The position numbers were made by a program, and so were the translations under genes. Positions 2,436-20,225 of a stretch of 64,000 bases of DNA are shown one piece after another. This DNA is from Terriglobus aquaticus (lineage in GTDB: Bacteria; Acidobacteriota; Terriglobia; Terriglobales; Acidobacteriaceae): NCBI RefSeq assembly GCF_025685415.1, contig NZ_JAGSYB010000001.1, forward strand, positions 3,410,001 through 3,474,000. The letters are read 5' to 3'. Under the pieces are notes generated by a model that worked only from the letters and a program-made list of their open reading frames with translations, made no database searches and was not told the origin of the DNA. Each line of letters starts with the position of its first letter. Positions within the stretch are counted from its first letter, which is position 1.

Positions 2436-3719
2436 ATGGCAGCCAAACGAACCAGCTCCGCGCGATCTGCTGCTTCGCGCGCAGAGGTGGAGCTGCCGCT
2501 CGACAAGAGCGCGCAGGCAGACTTCTCTGCGGCGCTGCTGGCCTGGTATCGGCGGCACGCCCGCGATCTGCCCTGGCGGCGTGATCCGGATCCATATCGC
2601 ACATGGGTAAGCGAAATTATGCTGCAGCAGACGCGCGTGAGTGCCGTGCTGGAGCATTTTCGCGCTTTCACCGAGCGGTTCCCGACGCTGGTAGCGCTCG
2701 CGCTGGCCCCGGAAGAAGACGTGCTGTCGCGGTGGAGCGGCCTCGGCTACTACAGGCGCGCGCGCATGCTGCATCGGGCGGCCAAGTTCCTGCTACAGGA
2801 GCATGAGGGCACGCTGCCGCGCACTGCGGCGGAGTTGCGCAAGCTGCCCGGCATCGGCAGCTACACCGCGGCCGCGATTGCCAGCATTGCCTTTGGAGAG
2901 CGGACTGCCGTGGTGGACGGCAACGTGGAACGCGTGCTGCTGCGCGTTGCGGGACGGCCCGAACAGGCAGACCGGGCGACGATCGACTTCGTTCAGCGAT
3001 TTGCGCAGGCGCTAATTGATGCGCCGGGACAGGAAGCTGAGGCCACCGGCGTTCCCGCACCTGCGCCGGGCGATCACAATCAGGCCATGATGGAGCTGGG
3101 CGCAACGGTGTGTCTGCCGCGCGGTCCGCGGTGCCTGGAATGCCCTGTGTACGACTGGTGCCGCACGCGCGGCGAGCACCCCACACCGGCGCGTGCCGCA
3201 ATGAAGTCTGAGCGGGTGGCCTATGCGTTGACGACGCGCAACAATGGGCCGCGCGGTGGCGTGGAGGTACTGCTGCATCGGCGCGGTGATGAGCAGACCG
3301 TGATGCCCGGCATGCTGGAGCTGCCGCTGCTGCGCTCTGCCCCCGCCACGGAACCCATGCTGCGGCTGCGCCACGCCATCATGGGGACGAACTACTACGC
3401 TGAAGTTTTTGGATTCAAGAATCGCCAGCAGGTGCATCGAGCAGCGCAGCCGGGCTTTCAAACTGCGTGGTTCGATACGCAGATGTTGGACCGCCTGCCC
3501 CTGACCGGGTTCGCTCGAAAGGTGCTGCAACGGGCCGGGCTGATGGCGCCCGCAGTCCCGATGCCGGCGCGCTCCACGGTTGGGGAAGCACCCTTGGCGT
3601 CGAGACTGGCGGCCCGGGTGAGTTTACTGTCCACGAAGCCAAATCGCGGCAGTGAGCGGACCGAGACGGGAATGCGCAGCCAACTCTTGTTTGACGAAGA
3701 AGATAGCTCGGATGGATAG
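2436..3719 (+). CDS. mutY: A/G-specific adenine DNA glycosylase MutY
   Basis: A 427-residue base-excision repair enzyme that removes adenine paired with 8-oxoguanine. The ATG at 2436 is chosen because upstream in-frame starts would overlap queE. Visible features are the catalytic glutamate Glu60 in SEIMLQQTR, the helix-hairpin-helix LPGIGSYTAAA starting at about residue 137, and the catalytic aspartate Asp161 in VVDGNV. The [4Fe-4S] ligands are Cys226, Cys233, Cys236 and Cys242 in C-x6-C-x2-C-x5-C spacing. From about 250 on there is the NUDIX-like domain that recognises 8-oxoG. The last 60 residues are low-complexity with an acidic end, longer than in E. coli MutY (350). Confidence 0.95.
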   Translation: MAAKRTSSARSAASRAEVELPLDKSAQADFSAALLAWYRRHARDLPWRRDPDPYRTWVSEIMLQQTRVSAVLEHFRAFTERFPTLVALALAPEEDVLSRWSGLGYYRRARMLHRAAKFLLQEHEGTLPRTAAELRKLPGIGSYTAAAIASIAFGERTAVVDGNVERVLLRVAGRPEQADRATIDFVQRFAQALIDAPGQEAEATGVPAPAPGDHNQAMMELGATVCLPRGPRCLECPVYDWCRTRGEHPTPARAAMKSERVAYALTTRNNGPRGGVEVLLHRRGDEQTVMPGMLELPLLRSAPATEPMLRLRHAIMGTNYYAEVFGFKNRQQVHRAAQPGFQTAWFDTQMLDRLPLTGFARKVLQRAGLMAPAVPMPARSTVGEAPLASRLAARVSLLSTKPNRGSERTETGMRSQLLFDEEDSSDG

Positions 3720-3756
3720 CAGACCAGCGTGACGGAATCTTCAACACGGAACGCGA

Positions 3757-3784
3757 AAAGGCCCGGGAGCGATCCCGGGCCTTT
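3757..3784. terminator. Perfect 12-bp hairpin, bidirectional terminator
   Basis: The arm at 3757-3768 (AAAGGCCCGGGA) pairs perfectly with 3773-3784 across a 4-base loop. A-run and T-run flanks lie on both sides, so it works in both directions. It sits between the convergent ends of mutY (3719) and the TPR gene (3804), as expected for a shared intrinsic terminator. Confidence 0.85.
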
Positions 3785-3803
3785 CCCTGTCCTGCAGATT
3801 TGA

Positions 3804-4937
3804 TTAGCGCTTCTTGCCCGCCTTGTAGCTGTTCACCACGGACTGATCCATTTCGGCCAGGATGCCCTTGACTTCGGGAGCGAAGCGGCCAGTGGGAGCG
3901 AGTTCGAGGTACTTGTTGTAGGCCTCGACGCAGCCCGGAGGCGGCACGAGCTTGTTGCCCTGCATGGAGCTCTTACCGATGAGCGAGGCACCCTTGATGT
4001 AGTAGGCATCGGCCTTGGTCGGATCGGCGGCGATTGCCTTGTCGGCCATGGCGGCGGCTTCGTCGTTGCTGCCGGCGTTCTTCAGAGTGACAGCGGCGTT
4101 GAAGTAGTACATGCCGGCCTTGGCAGGCTCTGCCTGTGCGGCCTTATCGAAGGAATCGGTAGCATCCTTGGGCTTGCTGGTCGCACCGTATACCTGACCC
4201 AGGCCGTTGTACGCGGCTCCGGCAAAGGCGGGGTTCGGCTTCTTGCTGGTGCCGTTGGTGTCAATCGCCTTCTGGAAGGCGGTGCCGGCATCGGCGTAGT
4301 CCTGGGTCTTCTTGCTGGCGTCGGTGTCCGTCTTGGCCAGGGCCAGTTCGGCATTGCCCTGCTCCAGCCACAGCACCGGCTCATCCGCCTTGGTTGCGGT
4401 GGCCTGCTTCATGTCGTCCACAGCGGACTGCGGATTCGTTTTCTCTTCCTCGCGGGCCTTGGTCAGCAGGGCATTCAGGTTGCCGATCTGCTTGTTCGCG
4501 GCAGCGGTTTCAGAGTTGCGCTTCTTGAACTCTTCAATGTTCTTGCGCTCTTCCGGCGACAGGTGGCTCAGGTACTCCTGCCGGGTCATGTCATCGTTGG
4601 CCGCGATATTGTCGCCAGCCTTCAGAACGACGTGGTCCAGGTAATCGACGGTCTTCTCGTTGACCTGGTAGAAGAGCACGTAGTCGCCCGGCGCGACACC
4701 GTCGATCTTGTAGCTGCCGTCGGCTCCGACTGGAGCGGTGTACTGGTACTTGCGGGTCTTGTCGTCGGGGCTGGTGCGATCCGTGGTCAGCTTGACCACG
4801 CCCTCTTTCACGGGGGACCCTGCCGCGTTGGTCACCGTACCGTGAACGCTGGCGGGTGCCGGCGCCTGTGCCAGCACCGAGGCCGATGCCAGAACCAGCG
4901 TCGCTGCGCTGAGGGAAAGGTTCCGAAGAGTTTTCAT
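3804..4937 (-). CDS. Secreted CarboxypepD_reg + TPR protein
   Basis: A 377-residue protein with a clear signal peptide (MKTLRNLSLSAATLVLASAS...LAQ, cleavage near residue 23). A carboxypeptidase-regulatory-like beta-sandwich follows at about 29-110 (HGTVTNAAGSPV, then DGSYKIDGVAPGDY). A charged linker (MTRQEYLSHLSPEERKNIEE) leads into TPR-like helical repeats from about 155 to 350. This domain pair is common in Acidobacteriota, where it is periplasmic or surface-exposed and of unknown function; protein-protein scaffolding is the inference. The gene is monocistronic, with its own 120-base upstream region and the shared hairpin downstream. Confidence 0.8.
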   Translation of the reverse strand: MKTLRNLSLSAATLVLASASVLAQAPAPASVHGTVTNAAGSPVKEGVVKLTTDRTSPDDKTRKYQYTAPVGADGSYKIDGVAPGDYVLFYQVNEKTVDYLDHVVLKAGDNIAANDDMTRQEYLSHLSPEERKNIEEFKKRNSETAAANKQIGNLNALLTKAREEEKTNPQSAVDDMKQATATKADEPVLWLEQGNAELALAKTDTDASKKTQDYADAGTAFQKAIDTNGTSKKPNPAFAGAAYNGLGQVYGATSKPKDATDSFDKAAQAEPAKAGMYYFNAAVTLKNAGSNDEAAAMADKAIAADPTKADAYYIKGASLIGKSSMQGNKLVPPPGCVEAYNKYLELAPTGRFAPEVKGILAEMDQSVVNSYKAGKKR

Positions 4938-5057
4938 GATCTGTCCTGCCGCTCCTGCCGGCCGTGAGCTTCCAACCGGTTCCTAAAATGATGAGACGCT
5001 TCTGTGACGGCCGCCGTACCCGCTGCGCCGCCACTTTAGTGTATGTCCGCTCCGCTG

Positions 5058-5774
5058 CTATGCTCCAGCGCCGGCAGCGTACGGGATCGGGTCTGACTGA
5101 CCTGCTTCGCGGAAGGCACGCAGCCGCAGAACGCAACTTTCGCACACGCCGCAGGCCACCCGGTCGCCCGAATAGCATGACCAACTTACATGCAATGGTG
5201 CACGGAGTTCAACACCCAGCCGCACGATCTCAGCTTTGCGCATGCGGATCAGTGGCGTTATGACCCGGATGTCGCCCTCTTTGGTGCCCTGCTGAATCAG
5301 TTCGTTGAAGGCGTCATAGTAGGCCGGCCGGCAGTCGGGATAGCCGGAGCTGTCCTGCTCGACCGCGCCGATGAAGATGGTGCGGGCGCCCAGCACCTCG
5401 GCCCAACTGACCGCGGCGGAGAGGAAGTGCGCGTTGCGGAAGGGAACATAGGTGACAGGCACGTGGGCGCCGATCGCGTTGTCCTCCGCGGGCGCGTCGG
5501 GAACGGCGATCAAGGCGTCCGTGAGGGCGGAGCCGCCGATGGTGCGGAACAGATCCATGCGCAGCGGCAAAAACTGGCGGAAGCCGAGAATGCTGGCGAC
5601 AGAACGGGCAGACTCGAGCTCGCGGGCTTCGGTGCGCTGGCCGTAGGAGAAGTGCAAGGCGTAGGCGTCGAAATCGCGCGCTGCCAGGGCGGCGCAGACG
5701 GTTGAGTCCATGCCACCGGACAGGCAGACCACGGCCTTGTTCCGTGGCTGCGCCGCTGTTGCAGATTCGGCCAC
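5058..5774 (-). CDS. queC: 7-cyano-7-deazaguanine synthase QueC
   Basis: A 238-residue ATP-dependent enzyme that converts 7-carboxy-7-deazaguanine and ammonia to preQ0. The PP-loop SGGMDST is at residues 19-25. The C-terminal zinc site is formed by four cysteines in SCYSGD...CGVCESC, and the SxGYPDCRP and RNAHFLS motifs are also typical of QueC. The start is a GTG at 5774 that shares one base with the stop of the upstream DUF2007 gene (TAGTG), implying translational coupling. Together with queD and queE this gives the complete route from dihydroneopterin triphosphate to preQ0; queF and tgt are not in the window. Confidence 0.93.
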   Translation of the reverse strand: MAESATAAQPRNKAVVCLSGGMDSTVCAALAARDFDAYALHFSYGQRTEARELESARSVASILGFRQFLPLRMDLFRTIGGSALTDALIAVPDAPAEDNAIGAHVPVTYVPFRNAHFLSAAVSWAEVLGARTIFIGAVEQDSSGYPDCRPAYYDAFNELIQQGTKEGDIRVITPLIRMRKAEIVRLGVELRAPLHVSWSCYSGDRVACGVCESCVLRLRAFREAGQSDPIPYAAGAGA

Positions 5775-12044: not shown

Positions 12045-12605
12045 CTACGGGTGCAACTGGTCCAGCGCCAGGTTCAGTTGCAGCACGTTGACGCGTGGTT
12101 CACCCAACAAGCCAAGCTGGCGTGGCGTGGTGTTGGCCTGAACGAGTTGGGTCACCGCGTCCGCGCTCAGGTGGCGTTCGCGGGCGATGCGCGGCACCTG
12201 GTACAGCGCGGCGGCTGGGGTGATGTCTGGATCCAGACCGGAGGCGGAAGCGGTGACCAGGTCTACTGGAACATCGGTGCTGCCCTCCGCCTCAGACTTC
12301 ACGCTGGTATTCACGCGGTCCACCAGGGTTTTGCTGGACGGAGCCAAGTTGGAGCCGCTGCTGGACTGGGCGTCGTATCCGGTGCCCGCCGCGGACGGCC
12401 GGCTGTGGAAGTAGGTCGCTCCGGTGAACGGCTGCCCGATGATCCTGGAGCCGATCACATCTCCGTTGCGGGTGATGAGTTGACCGGTGGCCCTGTCGCG
12501 GAAGAGAAGCATAGAGATGCCGGTGATGACCGCGGGGTAGATCAGGCCAAGGAGGACGGCCGTGATGGCCGTGTAGAGCGTTGCGGTGACGATGGTCTTC
12601 TTCAT
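12045..12605 (-). CDS. kdpC: Potassium-transporting ATPase subunit KdpC
   Basis: A 186-residue subunit of the KdpFABC potassium pump. It has one N-terminal membrane helix (VTATLYTAITAVLLGLIYPA) and a large periplasmic domain with the family signatures QPFTGATYFHSRPSAAGTGY and DLVTASASGLDPDI. KdpC stabilises the complex and is thought to assist ATP or potassium binding. It is the last gene of the operon, 11 bases behind kdpB, and converges with the TPR gene across only 26 bases. Confidence 0.96.
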   Translation of the reverse strand: MKKTIVTATLYTAITAVLLGLIYPAVITGISMLLFRDRATGQLITRNGDVIGSRIIGQPFTGATYFHSRPSAAGTGYDAQSSSGSNLAPSSKTLVDRVNTSVKSEAEGSTDVPVDLVTASASGLDPDITPAAALYQVPRIARERHLSADAVTQLVQANTTPRQLGLLGEPRVNVLQLNLALDQLHP

Positions 12606-12616
12606 GGCTCGGGTCC

Positions 12617-14653
12617 TTACGCCAGGTGAATCGCGGTGATGAGCATGTCGATCAGCTTGATGCCGATGAACGGAACGATGATGCCGCCCACACCATAGAC
12701 AAGCAGGTTGCGCTGCAACAGCGCTGCGGCAGATAGCGGCTTGTACGCTACACCTTTCAGCGCCAGCGGAATGAGACCGATGATGATCAGAGCGTTGAAG
12801 ATGATAGCCGACAGTACCGCCGATTCCGAGTTGTGCAGGTGCATGATGTTGAGCGCGTTCAGCACCGGGAAGACGCCGGCGAACATAGCCGGGATAATGG
12901 CGAAGTACTTGGCCACGTCATTCGCGATGCTGAAGGTGGTCAAAGCGCCGCGTGTCATGAGCAACTGCTTGCCGATGCCGACGATCTCGATCAGCTTGGT
13001 CGGATTCGAGTCGAGGTCAACCATGTTGCCGGCTTCCTTGGCGGCCTGGGTGCCGCTGTTCATGGCGACGCCTACGTCGGCCTGAGCCAGCGCGGGCGCG
13101 TCGTTGGTACCGTCGCCGGTCATGGCGACGAGCTTGCCCTCGGCCTGCTCGCGCTTGATTAGGTCCATCTTGTCCTTGGGCTTGGCCTCCGCCAGAAAGT
13201 CGTCGACACCTGCCTCACGCGCAATGGCGGCGGCGGTCAGCGGGTTATCGCCCGTGATCATCACCGTGCGAATGCCCATGGCGCGGAGCTGGTCGAAGCG
13301 CTCCTTCATGCCGCCCTTGACCACGTCCTTCAGGTAGATCACGCCCATGGCGCGGCCGTTCTCGGCGACGACCAGCGGTGTGCCGCCCTTGCGGGAGATC
13401 TCTTCGACGGAGGCGCGAACCTCAGCGGGCATGCCTTTGCCGTGCTCGTCCAGATAGCGAGCGATCGCATCCACGGCACCCTTGCGAATGGAGCGACCGT
13501 CCACCTCGATGCCGCTCATGCGGGTGTTGGCGCTGAAGGGAATGAACTCGGCGTTCACCTGGCCGAGTTCGCGACCGCGCAGGTTGTACTGCTCCTTCGC
13601 GAGCACGACCACGCTGCGGCCTTCCGGAGTCTCATCGGCAAGCGACGAGAGCTGCGCCGCGTCGGCAAGCTCCGCAGCGGTCACACCGGGTGCGGGAACG
13701 AACTCAGCGGCCTGGCGATTGCCGACGGTAATGGTGCCGGTCTTGTCGAGCAGCAGCGTGTTCACGTCGCCTGCGGCTTCCACGGCGCGGCCGCTCGTGG
13801 CCAGCACGTTGTGCTGCACGAGGCGATCCATACCTGCGATGCCGATCGCCGAAAGTAGCCCACCAATGGTGGTCGGGATCAGGCAAACCAGCAATGAGAT
13901 GAGCACGAACACGGTCTGCGGCGCGCCCGAGTACTGCGCGAACGGCTGCAGCGTGACGACCGCCAACAGGAAAATAATCGTAAGTCCCGCAAGCAGAATG
14001 TTGAGTGCAATTTCGTTGGGAGTCTTCTGCCGTTCGGCGCCTTCGACCAGCGCGATCATGCGGTCGAGGAAGGTCTCGCCAGGGTTCGAGGTGATGCGTA
14101 CGGTGATCACGTCACTGAGCACGCGCGTGCCGCCCGTAACTGCGGAGCGATCGCCACCGGCTTCGCGAATCACCGGAGCAGACTCGCCCGTGATCGCGGA
14201 TTCGTCGACAGAAGCGACACCTTCGACTACTTCACCGTCGCCAGGAATCATCTGCCCGGCGGTGACGCGGACCACATCGTCGGCACGCAACTGGGAACTG
14301 GCGATCTCCTGCACTTGGCCGCTCTTGTCCACCTTGTAGGCGGTGGTCTCGGACTTGGCCTGGCGCAGGGCGTCGGCCTGTGCTTTGCCGCGGCCCTCCG
14401 CCATGGCCTCGGCGAAGTTCGCGAAGAGCACCGTGAACCAGAGCCACAACGTGATCTGGAGGTCGAAGCTGAAGTGCCCACGGTGCAGGATGCGATCGAT
14501 GACCAGCAGCACGGTGGTGAGCACGCTGCCGATCTCCACCACAAACATGACGGGGTTCTTCATCATCAGCCGTGGGCTGAGTTTGCGCAGGGCATCTACC
14601 GAGGCGCGGCGGACAATTGCGGGATCAAAGAGAGAACGTTTCTTCGTGGCCAT
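12617..14653 (-). CDS. kdpB: Potassium-transporting P-type ATPase KdpB
   Basis: The 678-residue catalytic subunit of the KdpFABC pump. The phosphorylation motif is DKTGT with Asp303; the TGES loop of the actuator domain is at 155-158, and the hinge motif reads [11 protein letters not shown]. Seven or so membrane helices frame these domains, as in E. coli KdpB (682 residues). It uses ATP hydrolysis to drive potassium through KdpA at micromolar external concentration. It lies 18 bases behind kdpA and 11 before kdpC in one operon. Confidence 0.97.
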
Positions 14654-14671: not shown

Positions 14672-16435
14672 TTAGAAGAGTTGGCCCGCGCGGAGCAGCA
14701 GATGTTCCAGTATTGGACCAAGGCTGAGCACTGGGAAAAAGGTGAGCGCGCCGACAATCAGGATGATGCCCGTGAGCAGCACCGTGAACAGGGGCGTGGT
14801 GACCGGGAAGGTGCCGGCGGAGGCGGGCACAATCTTCTTCGCGGCTAGGCTGCCAGCGATGGCCATCATGGGAATCAGCATGAGGAAGCGGCCAGCGAAC
14901 ATCGCAACGGCGAGCGAGAAGTTGTACCAGTGCGTGTTGGCGCTGAGGCCAGCGAAGGCGGATCCGTTATTGCCGGTGGCGGAGGCGTACGCGTACAGGA
15001 TCTCCGATAGGCCGTGCGGTCCGTGGTTGGTCAAGCTGCCTAGGCCCAGAACCGGCATGCGAATCGCGATGGCCGCCAGGCTCAGGATGATGAGCGGAAA
15101 GATGAGCAGATACAGCATTGACATCTGCACGTCATACGCTTCGATCTTCTTGCCGAGGTACTCCGGCGTGCGGCCGACCATGAGACCGGCGATGAACACC
15201 GCGAGGATGACGAAGACCAGCATGCCGTACATGCCCGCGCCCACGCCGCCAAAAACGATTTCGCCCAGCAGGATGTTAACCATGGGAACGAGGCCGCCGA
15301 GCGGTGTGAAGCTGTCATGCATGCCATTCACGGCACCGCAGCTTGCGTCAGTGGTCACGGTTGCGAACAGGGCGGTGTTCGCAATGCCGAAGCGAACTTC
15401 CTTGCCTTCCATGTTGCCGCCGCTCTGCGTCGCGGAGACGTGCTGGTCTACATGCGCGAGTTGCGGATTGCCCTGTGCCTCTGCCCAGTAGCAAACGAAC
15501 GTGCCGGCGAACCACAGAATGACCATGGCGGCGAGCACAGCCCAGCCGTGCTTCGGAGACTTCACCATCTGGCCTAGAGTGACCGTCAGGGCCGCAGGTA
15601 TCAGAAAGATCGCCAGCATTTGCAGCAGGTTGGTCAGCGGCGTGGGGTTCTCAAACGGGTGGGCGCTGTTTGCATTGAAGAAGCCGCCACCGTTGGTGCC
15701 GAGCATCTTGATGGCTTCCTGCGAGGCTACCGGGCCCTGTGCAATGGTCTGCGTGGACACGGTTGTTGTCTTGCCGTCAGAGCCGGTCGTCTTCTGTGTC
15801 TCGACGAGCTTTGCTGTGTCGTAGGGCCGGAAGTTTTGCACGACTCCCTGCGATACCAGCACCAACGCGAGCACGGCGGAAATCGGCAGCAGGATCCACA
15901 GCGTGCCGCGCGTCAGGTCGACCCAGAAGTTGCCGAGCGTCTTCATCTCGCGGCGGGCGATGCCACGAATGAACGCGATCGCGAGTGCCAGACCAACGGC
16001 TGCGGACCAGAAGTTGTGCGTGGCCAGACCGACCATCTGAGTCAGGTAGCTCATGGTCGTTTCCGGCGTGTACGACTGCCAATTGGTGTTCGTCGTGAAC
16101 GAGACAGCGGTGTTCAGCGCCAGGTCTGCCGCCACGTTGGGCAGGTTCTGCGGGTTCAGGGGCAGCAGGTGCTGCACGCGCTGGATCACATAGGTAAGCA
16201 CCAGAGACGCCAGGCTGAAGATGAGCATGGCGTTGGTGTACTGCCACCACGTCATCTCCTCGTCTTGTTTGACTCCGGTCACGCGGTACAGCAGACGTTC
16301 TATTGGCGCCAACACAGGATCGAGAAAGGTGCGGCGGTGTTCGAAGACGGCGGTGATGAAGCTGCCCAGCGGCTTCGCCAGAAGCAACACAATCGCCATG
16401 AACAAGCCAATTTGCAGCCAACCATTCAGAGTCAT
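14672..16435 (-). CDS. kdpA: Potassium-transporting ATPase channel subunit KdpA
   Basis: The 587-residue channel-like subunit, with about ten membrane helices and four selectivity-filter repeats. Two of these are easy to read: LGTNGGGFFNANSAHPFENP and TTDASCGAVNGMHDSFTPLG. It belongs to the Trk/Ktr/HKT potassium channel superfamily and forms the ion path of the Kdp pump. The start at 16435 directly abuts the kdpF stop (TAA then ATG), so the two are translationally linked. Confidence 0.97.
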   Translation of the reverse strand: MTLNGWLQIGLFMAIVLLLAKPLGSFITAVFEHRRTFLDPVLAPIERLLYRVTGVKQDEEMTWWQYTNAMLIFSLASLVLTYVIQRVQHLLPLNPQNLPNVAADLALNTAVSFTTNTNWQSYTPETTMSYLTQMVGLATHNFWSAAVGLALAIAFIRGIARREMKTLGNFWVDLTRGTLWILLPISAVLALVLVSQGVVQNFRPYDTAKLVETQKTTGSDGKTTTVSTQTIAQGPVASQEAIKMLGTNGGGFFNANSAHPFENPTPLTNLLQMLAIFLIPAALTVTLGQMVKSPKHGWAVLAAMVILWFAGTFVCYWAEAQGNPQLAHVDQHVSATQSGGNMEGKEVRFGIANTALFATVTTDASCGAVNGMHDSFTPLGGLVPMVNILLGEIVFGGVGAGMYGMLVFVILAVFIAGLMVGRTPEYLGKKIEAYDVQMSMLYLLIFPLIILSLAAIAIRMPVLGLGSLTNHGPHGLSEILYAYASATGNNGSAFAGLSANTHWYNFSLAVAMFAGRFLMLIPMMAIAGSLAAKKIVPASAGTFPVTTPLFTVLLTGIILIVGALTFFPVLSLGPILEHLLLRAGQLF

Positions 16436-16881: not shown

Positions 16882-16914
16882 GAAGTCCGTTAGAAAGGCA
16901 TGAGAAAGTTATAA
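16882..16914 (-). promoter_or_regulatory. Three contiguous 11-bp direct repeats, candidate KdpE boxes
   Basis: Read on the minus strand, TTATAACTTTC (16914-16904), TCATGCCTTTC (16903-16893) and TAACGGACTTC (16892-16882) follow one another with no gap. Each ends in a C/T-rich TTC block. Head-to-tail repeats with a 10-11 bp period are the usual binding pattern of OmpR/PhoB-family regulators such as KdpE. The first repeat overlaps the kdpE stop codon. The KdpE assignment is an inference from position and repeat spacing. Confidence 0.5.
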
Positions 16915-17607
16915 GTTCTCAGGCGAGGGAGTAAGCCGGTAGCCCACCCAGGGCTCGCTGTGAATGTAGCGATGTTCGCCGTGCTCAATCTTCTTACGCA
17001 GTTGCGCTACCAGAGTGCGCAGCTTCTCGACTTGCCCCTCTTCGGCAGCGCCCCAAATGAAACGACCAAGAGCTCGATGGGTCAGGATGCGATCCGGCTT
17101 CTGCAACAGAGCCGCAAGTAACTGAAACTCCTTCGGTGTCAGGCGCACGTCCACACCGCGCACCAGCACACGGTGGACTTCCGGGTTTAGTTCGAAGTCG
17201 CCTGCGTTCAGCGTGCCTTCGGGTGTCGTGCTTTCCTGCGGCGGCAGGGCCTGGCGACGTAACTGTGCGCGCACACGGGCCAGCAACTCCGGCATGGCGA
17301 AAGGCTTGGTCACATAGTCATCTGCGCCCGCGTCCAGGGCGTCGATCTTCATGCCTTCGGTCGCGCGAACGCTAAGAACGATGATGGGCACGCGAGAGAT
17401 GCGGCGGATCGCCTCGGTCAGTGCAAGCCCGTCCATTACGGGCATGCTTAGGTCGGTAATGACCAGGTCTGGCTTTGACGATTCGAAGACCTCAAGGCCT
17501 TCGCGGCCGTTGCCCGCCTTGATCACCTCGTAGCCGCTGCTGACCAGGGAAGCGCGCAGCATGCGGGTGATCTGGGGCTCGTCGTCGACGATGAGGATGC
17601 GGCTCAC
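16909..17607 (-). CDS. kdpE: OmpR-family response regulator KdpE
   Basis: A 232-residue two-domain regulator. The receiver domain (1-120) has the acidic pocket Asp8/Asp9, the phospho-acceptor Asp52 (VITDLSMP) and the conserved lysine in DDYVTKPF. The winged-helix DNA-binding domain (about 130-228) ends ...RYIHSEPWVGYRL, typical of KdpE. The start is a GTG at 17607 overlapping the kdpD stop (GTGA), with AGGAGG immediately upstream; the longer open frame is antisense material. It should activate kdpFABC under potassium limitation after phosphorylation by the kinase half encoded at 18756. Confidence 0.92.
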   Translation of the reverse strand: MSRILIVDDEPQITRMLRASLVSSGYEVIKAGNGREGLEVFESSKPDLVITDLSMPVMDGLALTEAIRRISRVPIIVLSVRATEGMKIDALDAGADDYVTKPFAMPELLARVRAQLRRQALPPQESTTPEGTLNAGDFELNPEVHRVLVRGVDVRLTPKEFQLLAALLQKPDRILTHRALGRFIWGAAEEGQVEKLRTLVAQLRKKIEHGEHRYIHSEPWVGYRLTPSPENL

Positions 17608-18737
17608 GATTCCTCCTGGGTGACGATGTGCAGATCGACGTGTGGCGCTTCGGTCATGAACTTCTGGATGGCGAGATGGTACAGGTACTTGCGCAGGCCG
17701 TGCAGGGCAGATCGGCCGAAGATCACCTGGGTGATGCGGTGCTGCGTGACGTATTCGGCCGTGGCAGACGCGACACTTTTCCCTTTCAGGTGAACGATCT
17801 CCGCACCCAGATTGCTCGCGAACTGCAGGTGCGCCTGCAGGGTGTGTTGCCGCTCCGGATCTTCGTCGCGCTCCGTCTCTACGTGAACTACGAACAACTC
17901 GCCGTCCATGCCCTCGGCCAATCTGGCGCCGCGTGCGATCAGGTCGCGCGCCTGCGGATTGCTGCTGATGCACACGGCGATGCGCTCCGTAACCGCCCAG
18001 TGCGCACCCAGGCGTTTACGGCGAACGTAGTCGTCCAGGTGGCGGTCGACCGCCTTGGTGACTTTTTGCAATGCCATCTCGCGCAGGGCGATCAGATTGC
18101 CGCGTCGGAAGAAGTTCGCCAGTGAGCGCTCGATGCGATCCGGCGGATAGATGTCACCGCGCCGCATGCGCGTGATGAGTGCTTCCGGGGTCAGGTCGGC
18201 GATAACGATTTCGTCGGCGCGGTCCAGCACCCAGTCGGGCACCTGCTCGCGCACGGTCACGCCGGTCAGTGCCTGCACGCGCGTAGTCAGGCTTTCAATG
18301 TGCTGGATGTTGACCGTGGTGAGAACGTCGATTCTGTTTTCGAGCAGCAGCAGAACGTCTTCGTAGCGCTTTTCAAAGCGGCTGCCCACCACGTTGGTGT
18401 GTGCTAATTCGTCGACCAGCACCACCTGCGGAGCGCGCTTGAGAATCGCGTCTACATCCATCTCCTGAAAGATGGTTCCGCGATAATCGAGGTCGCGCCG
18501 GGGCACCTGCTCGAGTTTCTGGCTTACCTCCGCTGTGCCTGCGCGGCCGTGCGTTTCGACGACACCGATGACCACGTCCTCGCCGCGCTGCAACCGCCGC
18601 AGGCCCTCGCTCAACATGCTGTACGTCTTGCCGACACCCGGAGCGTAGCCAAGAAAGACCTTGAAGCGGCCCTTCTGCTTCTCGCCTTCCGCCTCGCTGC
18701 TGTGCAACCAGTCTTCCGGTGTCTTCCGAACGGTCAT
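17604..18737 (-). CDS. kdpD: KdpD N-terminal sensor half (KdpD + USP domains), no kinase
   Basis: A 377-residue cytosolic protein equal to the N-terminal half of canonical KdpD. The Walker A motif GYAPGVGKT is at 30-38 and the Walker B-like stretch reads VVLVDELAHTN, together forming the KdpD domain (about 23-230). A universal-stress-protein-like domain follows at about 250-372; in KdpD proteins this domain binds cyclic nucleotides. It stops before any membrane helix, where E. coli KdpD (894 residues) continues into four helices and the kinase. The ATG at 18737 is 18 bases from the divergent start of the gene encoding the missing half. It overlaps kdpE by four bases. Confidence 0.9.
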   Translation of the reverse strand: MTVRKTPEDWLHSSEAEGEKQKGRFKVFLGYAPGVGKTYSMLSEGLRRLQRGEDVVIGVVETHGRAGTAEVSQKLEQVPRRDLDYRGTIFQEMDVDAILKRAPQVVLVDELAHTNVVGSRFEKRYEDVLLLLENRIDVLTTVNIQHIESLTTRVQALTGVTVREQVPDWVLDRADEIVIADLTPEALITRMRRGDIYPPDRIERSLANFFRRGNLIALREMALQKVTKAVDRHLDDYVRRKRLGAHWAVTERIAVCISSNPQARDLIARGARLAEGMDGELFVVHVETERDEDPERQHTLQAHLQFASNLGAEIVHLKGKSVASATAEYVTQHRITQVIFGRSALHGLRKYLYHLAIQKFMTEAPHVDLHIVTQEES

Positions 18738-18755
18738 CGCCTTAGAATTGCCCTC

Positions 18756-20225
18756 ATGGACTCGCGGCGCTTCATCATCATCTTTCGGTGGACGGTTGCG
18801 GCTGCGGCTCTGGCCGGAATTGTACTCGTCTACAGCCGCTGGCTCCATGTGAACCAGACCACGGTTGCGTTGACGCTGCTGTTGCTGATCCTGACACTCG
18901 CAGCCAACTGGGGCTTCCGCTACGCGTTGGTAACTTCGCTTGCGGCAACGGTTTGTTACAACTTCTTTTTTCTTCCACCCATCGGCAGAATCACGATTGC
19001 AGATTCGCAGAACTGGCTTGCACTCTTTGTCTTCCTTGTAACTGCCGCGGTCGGCAGCCGGTTGTCCCAGAAGGCGCGCGATCAGGCGTCGCGAGCACGG
19101 TCGCGGCAGCGGGAGGTCGAGCTGTCGTTCCAACTGGGCCGCGAGCTGCTGCAACTGGACGATGTCGGCAATCTGCAAACGGCATTGCCGGTGCTCATCG
19201 CCCGCGTAACGCACGCTTCCGGAGTGGTGTTGTATCTGTTGGATGGTGACCGCGTGTTTCAGCATGGCAGCACTGTGATCAGCGCGGAGGTTCCGCACCT
19301 GCGCCAGGTAGCGCTGAGCCTGCGCGAGCCAGACCTGGAAGCGACGGGTGAGGTGCGCATTCCCATCATGGCGGGCGCGCGGCCGCGCGGCTTGCTGACC
19401 ATGACCGGTGTCCGGGTGTCATCGGAAAGCCTGCAGACCATTGGCGGCCTCGTGTCTATCTCCCTGGATCGCGCTCAGGCGCTGGCCGACCTGGCGAAGG
19501 GTGAGGCGACGAAGGAAAGCGAACGCCTTCGTACGCTGATTATCGATTCCATTACGCATGAGCTGCGCACGCCGCTCACCTCGATCAAGGGCGCGGCTTC
19601 GGCGCTACGGGCGAACCGCAACATGCCGGCCGACATGCGCGACGACCTGATCGACGTGGTGGATGAGGAGAGTGACCGGCTGAACCTGCTGGTCGAGCGA
19701 GCCACCGAAATGGGCAAGCTGGATGCCCGGCAAGTTCACATGACCTTCCGCGCCGTGAACGTGCACGACCTGCTGGAGCAGGCTCGGCACGATTGCGCTT
19801 CGTCCTATGCGCACCACCCGATCACCATCGTGGATGGAAACGTTCCCGACGTGTGGGCCGACGCGGAACTGGTGCAAAAGGTGGTGTGCAACCTGATCGA
19901 GAACGCGGCGAAGTATTCACCGGAGCAGACACCGATCACCGTCTCTGCCCGGGTTCAAGGCAGTGCGGTTTCTATCGCGGTTGCAGATCGAGGCTACGGC
20001 ATCGATCCTAGCGAGCAGTCGTTCATCTTCGACCGCTTCTACCGGGCGCGAAATCCGCATGAGCATATCTCGGGATCGGGAATGGGCTTGGCCATCAGCC
20101 GCGCGATTGTCGAGGCGCACGATGGAACGATCGAGGTGACCAGTCAACCGGGTTCGGGTTCGGTGTTCACCTTTACCCTGCCGCTGGCCACAGCCGCGCA
20201 TGAGGCGACGCTCGTAGAGATGTGA
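18756..20225 (+). CDS. KdpD C-terminal half: DUF4118-GAF-histidine kinase
   Basis: A 489-residue membrane histidine kinase with exactly the parts that the divergent kdpD half lacks. Four membrane helices of the DUF4118 type lie at about 6-27, 36-53, 56-75 and 86-103. A GAF-like region follows at about 125-240, then the H-box with His268 (IDSITHELRTPLTS), the N-box (LIENAAKYSP) and the G-boxes (DRGYGI, GSGMGLAIS). The start is ATG 18756; an upstream in-frame extension would be antisense to kdpD. It most likely phosphorylates KdpE with the separate sensor half. The 18-base gap leaves no room for a normal promoter, so promoters must lie inside the opposite coding region. Confidence 0.88.
   Translation: MDSRRFIIIFRWTVAAAALAGIVLVYSRWLHVNQTTVALTLLLLILTLAANWGFRYALVTSLAATVCYNFFFLPPIGRITIADSQNWLALFVFLVTAAVGSRLSQKARDQASRARSRQREVELSFQLGRELLQLDDVGNLQTALPVLIARVTHASGVVLYLLDGDRVFQHGSTVISAEVPHLRQVALSLREPDLEATGEVRIPIMAGARPRGLLTMTGVRVSSESLQTIGGLVSISLDRAQALADLAKGEATKESERLRTLIIDSITHELRTPLTSIKGAASALRANRNMPADMRDDLIDVVDEESDRLNLLVERATEMGKLDARQVHMTFRAVNVHDLLEQARHDCASSYAHHPITIVDGNVPDVWADAELVQKVVCNLIENAAKYSPEQTPITVSARVQGSAVSIAVADRGYGIDPSEQSFIFDRFYRARNPHEHISGSGMGLAISRAIVEAHDGTIEVTSQPGSGSVFTFTLPLATAAHEATLVEM

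Follow-up and report, generated by a model that had tools for sequence, protein, structure and literature searches.

Gene organization of the kdp locus

The regulator of the Kdp potassium pump was analysed in a stretch of 64,000 nucleotides of Terriglobus aquaticus DNA (contig NZ_JAGSYB010000001.1, positions 3,410,001 to 3,474,000), referred to here as the window, in which the domains of the sensor protein KdpD are found in two separate frames on opposite strands rather than in one all-domain chain. The minus-strand gene, kdpD-N (17604..18737), encodes a protein of 377 amino acids (aa) with a KdpD domain (PF02702) and a Usp domain, predicted to be an atypical serine kinase acting on KdpB, and the plus-strand gene (18756..20225) encodes a DUF4118 histidine kinase of 489 aa, which resembles the C-terminal half of KdpD and whose phospho-acceptor is H268 by alignment. 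The two start codons, at 18737(−) and 18756(+), lie 18 bases apart, and the spacer separating them (18738..18755, no strand) contains the hexamer TAGAAT (18743..18748, plus strand, 7 nt 5′ of the ATG), the predicted −10 box of the kinase gene. On the minus strand, kdpD-N is followed by the response regulator gene kdpE (16909..17607), whose GTG start shares the letters GTGA with the kdpD-N stop, and then by kdpA (14672..16435), kdpB (12617..14653, with the TGES motif present) and kdpC (12045..12605), the last being an open reading frame named from its position and its matches to kdpC of relatives. A preliminary description of this locus had given the two protein lengths, the coordinates, the 18-base gap and the GTGA coupling to kdpE, all of which were borne out on the sequence.

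Within the genome (4.16 Mb, 99.99% complete), PF02702 and DUF4118 each have a single match, in both cases at the kdp locus, and a full-length kdpD is absent by genome-wide matching of these two profiles. A full-length copy elsewhere, which had been named as the case that would speak against a two-gene KdpD, was thus looked for and is not present.

According to Pfam, PF02702 covers residues 21–230 of kdpD-N and Usp covers residues 251–351. The chain aligns to residues 6–346 of Escherichia coli K-12 KdpD, and its residues 21–238 are matched, with an E value of 6.6e-66, by 2r8r, a solved structure that carries a sensor-protein annotation. Neither a strongly hydrophobic stretch (hydropathy scan) nor a membrane part or kinase core (Pfam and hydropathy) was found in it. 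The plus-strand protein, with DUF4118, HisKA and HATPase_c domains, aligns to residues 387–884 of the E. coli protein, and all 60 aligned kinases share its H268, N383 and G-box glycines. Placed end to end, the two chains match E. coli KdpD in domain types and domain order, as had been proposed, except for the GAF domain, which Pfam did not detect in the window kinase; a GAF_3 match was seen in 14 of the 60 aligned kinases, a set that includes fused C-halves. The four membrane helices of the earlier proposal agree with the DUF4118 match, but a plain hydropathy scan gives only two strong stretches, near the N-terminus of the kinase. The length of 894 aa quoted for E. coli KdpD was confirmed, and the idea that nothing is lost leaves out of account E. 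coli residues 347–386, to which neither chain aligns.

Conservation of the divergent layout

In a family set of 150 genomes, PF02702 was matched in 120 and DUF4118 in 143. The search for the same divergent pair in relatives, suggested in the preliminary description, gave a positive answer: in at least 82 of the 120 genomes with KdpD-N, a DUF4118 gene is adjacent and divergent (85 pairs, by coordinates), with domain edges 110–243 nt apart. Among the DUF4118 matches listed, none lies downstream on the same strand for any of 143 PF02702 matches. Three of the 120 genomes (G036, G076, G146) show fragments of KdpD-N only. Start-codon gaps range from 3 to 154 nt (median 50) over the 108 distinct head-to-head pairs of the fetched loci and are 100 nt or less in 102 of them; these start codons, like those behind the box counts below, are predictions. 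The gap is 18 nt in the window, 17 in four genus mates and 14 in Terriglobus roseus. The complete genome of T. roseus DSM 18391 contains a large duplication, seen as two 21,110-base regions (L071, L072) that each carry a whole kdp locus and agree, with no gaps, at 19,080 positions.

The position of kdpE is more variable. Among 26 named acidobacterial loci (L071–L096), kdpE follows the kinase in 12 and the N-half in 8, the latter being the order of the window; contig ends truncate another 4, and no kdpE match was found near the pair in L076 and L079. L079 still has kdpA-B-C, and L076 has no kdp pump genes within 10 kb downstream. Since the N-half has the kinase as its neighbour throughout these loci while kdpE switches sides, the three most likely belong together. 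The possibility that the plus-strand kinase is partnered with a different regulator, and stands beside kdpD-N by accident, draws on its best NCBIfam matches, which are PnpS and PhoR with KdpD behind them, and on the occurrence of DUF4118 kinases without a partner, DUF4118 being found in 143 of the 150 genomes vs. 120 for KdpD-N. However, this kinase is the sole DUF4118 protein of the window genome, kdpE directly follows the kinase in the 12 loci mentioned above, and kinase and kdpE occur together, divergently, in 6 of 11 kinase loci from genomes with a second type of KdpD-N (see below), so that we regard this possibility as highly improbable.

In a sample of genomes from the phylum, 105 of 297 exceeded the PF02702 cut-off, with open frames of about 900 aa in some families, e.g., f23 and f4, and of about 370–450 aa in many others. 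In one more distant genome (L221), kdpA-B-C, N-half, kinase and kdpE follow one another in this order on one strand.

Start region and predicted kinase promoter

A TANNNT hexamer was found 5–9 nt 5′ of an in-frame kinase start codon in 98 of 103 head-to-head pairs, at 6–7 nt in 91 of those 98 and reading TA[CG]AAT in 87, while eight control patterns in the same search (−70 to +40) were found in 0–26 of the 103 pairs. In 26 kinases without a head-to-head N-half, for which a wider stretch (−120 to +60) was searched, TANNNT was found in 9 and TA[CG]AAT in 3. In the window genome, TA[CG]AAT-N7-ATG occurs 9 times vs. once for the reversed control. According to PMC3160421, such a box marks leaderless genes, whose share was estimated to average 13.3% across three Acidobacteria genomes. 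The kinase is accordingly predicted, from its start region, to be translated from leaderless mRNA.

Since the conserved box lies 7 nt before the ATG and within the spacer, the core of the kinase promoter would lie in the spacer and not in the kdpD-N gene; any −35 element would fall among kdpD-N codons. The earlier view that the promoter for each gene must lie within the coding region of the other is thus not supported for the −10-like box of the kinase. A sigma-70 consensus scan returned 0 sites. For the kdpD-N start, no box as clear as that of the kinase was seen in the head-to-head pairs: GA[CG]AAT stands 5–9 nt before the N-half start in 36 of 103 pairs, compared to 0–10 for variants with AA, CA or GT as the first two bases, and in just 5 of 40 in the score-defined group that contains the window. 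In many family genomes, a TTGTCGA-like block directly 5′ of the TACAAT box, often repeated farther up, was noticed by eye and not counted; block and box together can read ATTGT-N11-ACAAT, a possible operator, which was not seen in the window. The conserved, almost spacer-less start region is a candidate for two opposed regulatory genes on one promoter region.

The kept box also bears on whether the layout is an assembly error or a recent inversion breaking one kdpD gene, an explanation that has nothing in its favour except the odd layout. Against it stand the same layout in the four genus mates and in the complete T. roseus genome, the 108 distinct pairs and the TANNNT box of 98 of 103 pairs, leaving it with practically no credence. 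Assembly error or chance was also rejected on the conservation counts of the divergent pairs.

Origin of the two chains

Phylogenetic trees were calculated separately for the N-halves and the kinases using FastTree, without bootstrap, after short rows and core near-duplicates had been dropped (and one gappy row in the N tree). The divergent N-halves (55 rows labelled 'div' and 1 labelled 'lone', from a locus at which a kinase was not seen) form one supported clade of the N tree, among freestanding KdpD-N, which include those of cyanobacteria and other Acidobacteriota, whereas fused KdpDs, including the acidobacterial ones, are on the opposite side. The kinase tree separates 44 fused C-halves and 1 other row from 83 freestanding kinases, which include all 53 divergent ones. 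A constraint placing the acidobacterial fused and the divergent N-halves in one clade was rejected with a p-value of 0.017 in the approximately unbiased (AU) test, and with a p-AU of 0.022 for a clade enlarged by the remaining freestanding N-halves of acidobacteria (51 rows, quick tree, simple model). A recent split of a fused acidobacterial kdpD is thereby rejected, and the trees and tests indicate that the divergent pair does not stem from a recent local break of kdpD. The preliminary description had spoken of a KdpD split into two genes; as an event, such a split is not supported, given the grouping of both halves with freestanding lineages and the rejected constraint.

Comparison with known Kdp regulators

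A two-chain KdpD, consisting of an atypical serine kinase (ASK) and a histidine kinase, has been described for Acidobacteriota and Chloroflexota (Silberberg et al. 2024, PMC11018627), and the window system is an instance of this already known form. Both have a KdpD/Usp chain with the serine-kinase residues, a separate kinase with transmembrane part and DHp-CA core, and KdpE. In the window the two genes have a head-to-head arrangement, and its genome is without the diadenylate cyclase invoked for the short chains. In Deinococcus radiodurans, a truncated kdpD-N, a separate sensor kinase and a regulator are likewise found in opposed operons, but kdpD-N lies within the kdpBAC operon (kdpBACD-N) and not head to head with the kinase (PMC5716572). 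E. coli, in contrast, has one 894-aa protein and kdpFABCDE all on one strand. Searches of open-licence papers gave no description of the head-to-head layout of kdpD-N and kinase. The kdp region of Alicyclobacillus acidocaldarius is said to have been treated by Schleussinger, Schmid and Bakker in 2006. In this species the ASK chain is encoded downstream of the pump (PMC11018627), whereas in the window kdpD-N and the kinase gene come first on each side.

Serine-kinase residues and the question of c-di-AMP input

The N domain of E. coli KdpD is an atypical serine kinase that phosphorylates S162 in the TGES motif of KdpB, for which residues 1–230 alone are sufficient in vitro (PMC11018627). The window kdpD-N has the equivalents of the E. 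coli serine-kinase residues, i.e., Walker A, D109, E110 and R190. Among 109 distinct N-halves of the divergent type, a label given by best identity to reference rows and not from the tree (the 'psi' label also took in rows from outside the family), D109, E110 and R190 are kept in 108, the remaining one having a gap, and position W39 is occupied by Y or F in 104, with Y in 74 including the window. All 76 KdpB matches that span the TGES motif, counted with duplicates included, have it. KdpD-N and kdpA occur together in 110 of the 150 family genomes, kdpA alone in 4, KdpD-N alone in 10 and neither in 26.

Silberberg et al. proposed that short KdpD chains are controlled via Usp, which was shown for cyclic di-adenosine monophosphate (c-di-AMP) in Deinococcus geothermalis (PMC11018627). 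The diadenylate cyclase (PF02457) is absent from the window genome and the four genus mates and present in 75 of the 150 family genomes, so that self-made c-di-AMP cannot drive the N-chain in the window genus. The signature of c-di-AMP-binding KdpD Usp domains, (A/G/C)XSXSX2N...(Y/F), was derived from Firmicutes (PMC8214093). Read by hand on the window sequence, with the register taken from alignments, the window Usp misses it: C256 and S258 fit, while N260 replaces the second S, A263 the N and H285 the Y. Residue 285, corresponding to Y271 of Staphylococcus aureus, is Y in 54/54 divergent-type N-halves from cyclase-bearing genomes; in 33 from cyclase-less genomes it is H in 25 and Y in 8. However, only 3–4 independent pairs on the tree bear on this association (sign test p of 1), outgroup rows have both H and Y, and six other columns exceed residue 285 in mutual information. 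The association is therefore descriptive only, with too few independent changes on the tree for residue and cyclase to be called coupled.

Proposed function and possible trans assembly

We consider it probable that the window pair is a natural two-chain Kdp regulator, a serine-kinase pump brake plus a separate kinase driving KdpE, and not a broken KdpD. In this proposal the N-chain would be a soluble atypical serine kinase that phosphorylates the TGES serine of KdpB at high K+, by which pumps already in the membrane would be stopped. The other chain would be a membrane histidine kinase sensing K+, which would phosphorylate KdpE and so turn on kdpABC at low K+. The kinase would be made from a leaderless mRNA with its −10 box in the spacer, and the N-chain would be transcribed in the opposite direction with kdpE. 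Both enzyme activities, the partnership with KdpE and the leaderless start are inferred from sequence comparison. With pump brake and gene switch on separate genes and no enzyme making c-di-AMP, the signal of the brake becomes a direct question.

Several points weigh against this proposal. The NCBIfam model NF038185 (KdpD_non_kinase), although the best-matching one for kdpD-N, scores 378.3 bits vs. a cut-off of 550. The division of the N tree into fused and freestanding sides has a support of 92 or 80 (two trees), and 8 freestanding rows, 6 of which are first copies of tandem pairs (see below), are on the fused side. The root of the tree is unplaced, and an ancient split may have taken place. 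Finally, an N-chain without c-di-AMP input might need the kinase after all.

The last point leads to a trans-assembled KdpD, in which the N-chain docks on the membrane kinase and one K+ signal rules both the serine kinase and KdpE. This would fit the adjacency of the pair in at least 82 of the 120 family genomes with KdpD-N, the reported role of the N-terminal region of fused KdpD as a scaffold for KdpE and DNA (PMC8214093), and the missing cyclase together with H at the S. aureus Y271 position, which make c-di-AMP an unlikely input and call for another sensor. However, the 54 of 54 divergent-type N-halves with a cyclase have Y, showing that the layout persists where c-di-AMP is available, and in sister genera the kinase occurs at kdp loci without an adjacent N-half. 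We consider trans assembly as the actual mode of regulation unlikely. The preliminary description had held that the halves need to come together in trans; in view of these loci, and of the E. coli N domain acting alone in vitro (PMC11018627), assembly in trans is possible but not required under the two-chain proposal.

A second N-type beside a kinase-like protein without phospho-histidine

In sister genera, another freestanding KdpD-N stands directly behind a membrane histidine-kinase-like protein (e.g., L171–L190, L215, L217). This second N-type was found in 35 family genomes, 34 of which are without diadenylate cyclase (shared ancestry not controlled for). The phospho-histidine of the kinase-like protein is replaced in 34/34 alignable family cases (Q 17, R 10, E 3, D 2, S 1, L 1); N383 and G413 are conserved. 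One more family case is cut off, and two cases in family f10 likewise are without the phospho-histidine. The single row with H in this alignment is the DUF4118 kinase of L221. In 16 second-type rows, none of them in the family, no kinase core was found within the 700-nt reach; in at least one case, L229, a kinase with the histidine stands farther on. The window genome has no full-length match to the His-less protein, its matches being mostly to the kinase core at 37% identity or less. At the DUF4118 loci of second-type genomes, the kinase is divergent from kdpE with no N-half between them in 6 of 11 cases (L192–L195, L199, L202). A literature search gave no paper on a KdpD-N paired with a His-less kinase-like protein.

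This arrangement suggests that the serine kinase takes its input from whichever partner adjoins, which keeps the trans idea alive for the window. We offer, tentatively and with considerable doubt, the view that in cyclase-less Acidobacteriaceae the freestanding serine kinase has no c-di-AMP input and is signalled in trans by a membrane kinase-like partner. This would be the head-to-head DUF4118 kinase in the lineage of the window and, in the sister genera, the His-less protein, which would then serve the serine kinase purely as a sensor.

Other arrangements of PF02702 were also observed. In three family genomes, PF02702 is fused to CBS and MgtE, a divalent-cation transporter (L315 1503–3626(−), L317 2192–4294(+), L316 2345–4453(+)), so that a KdpD serine-kinase-like domain is joined to a different transporter; a literature search gave no paper on such a fusion. 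Each of these fusions stands behind another PF02702 protein, with no histidine kinase fused. Tandem PF02702 pairs were seen in L184 (6948–9268), L185 (about 3680–5430), L220, L224, L225 and L024, in which the first copy is without the Walker-B glutamate (G or P, 6/6) and the second has it (6/6), i.e., an inactive-looking copy stands beside an intact one.

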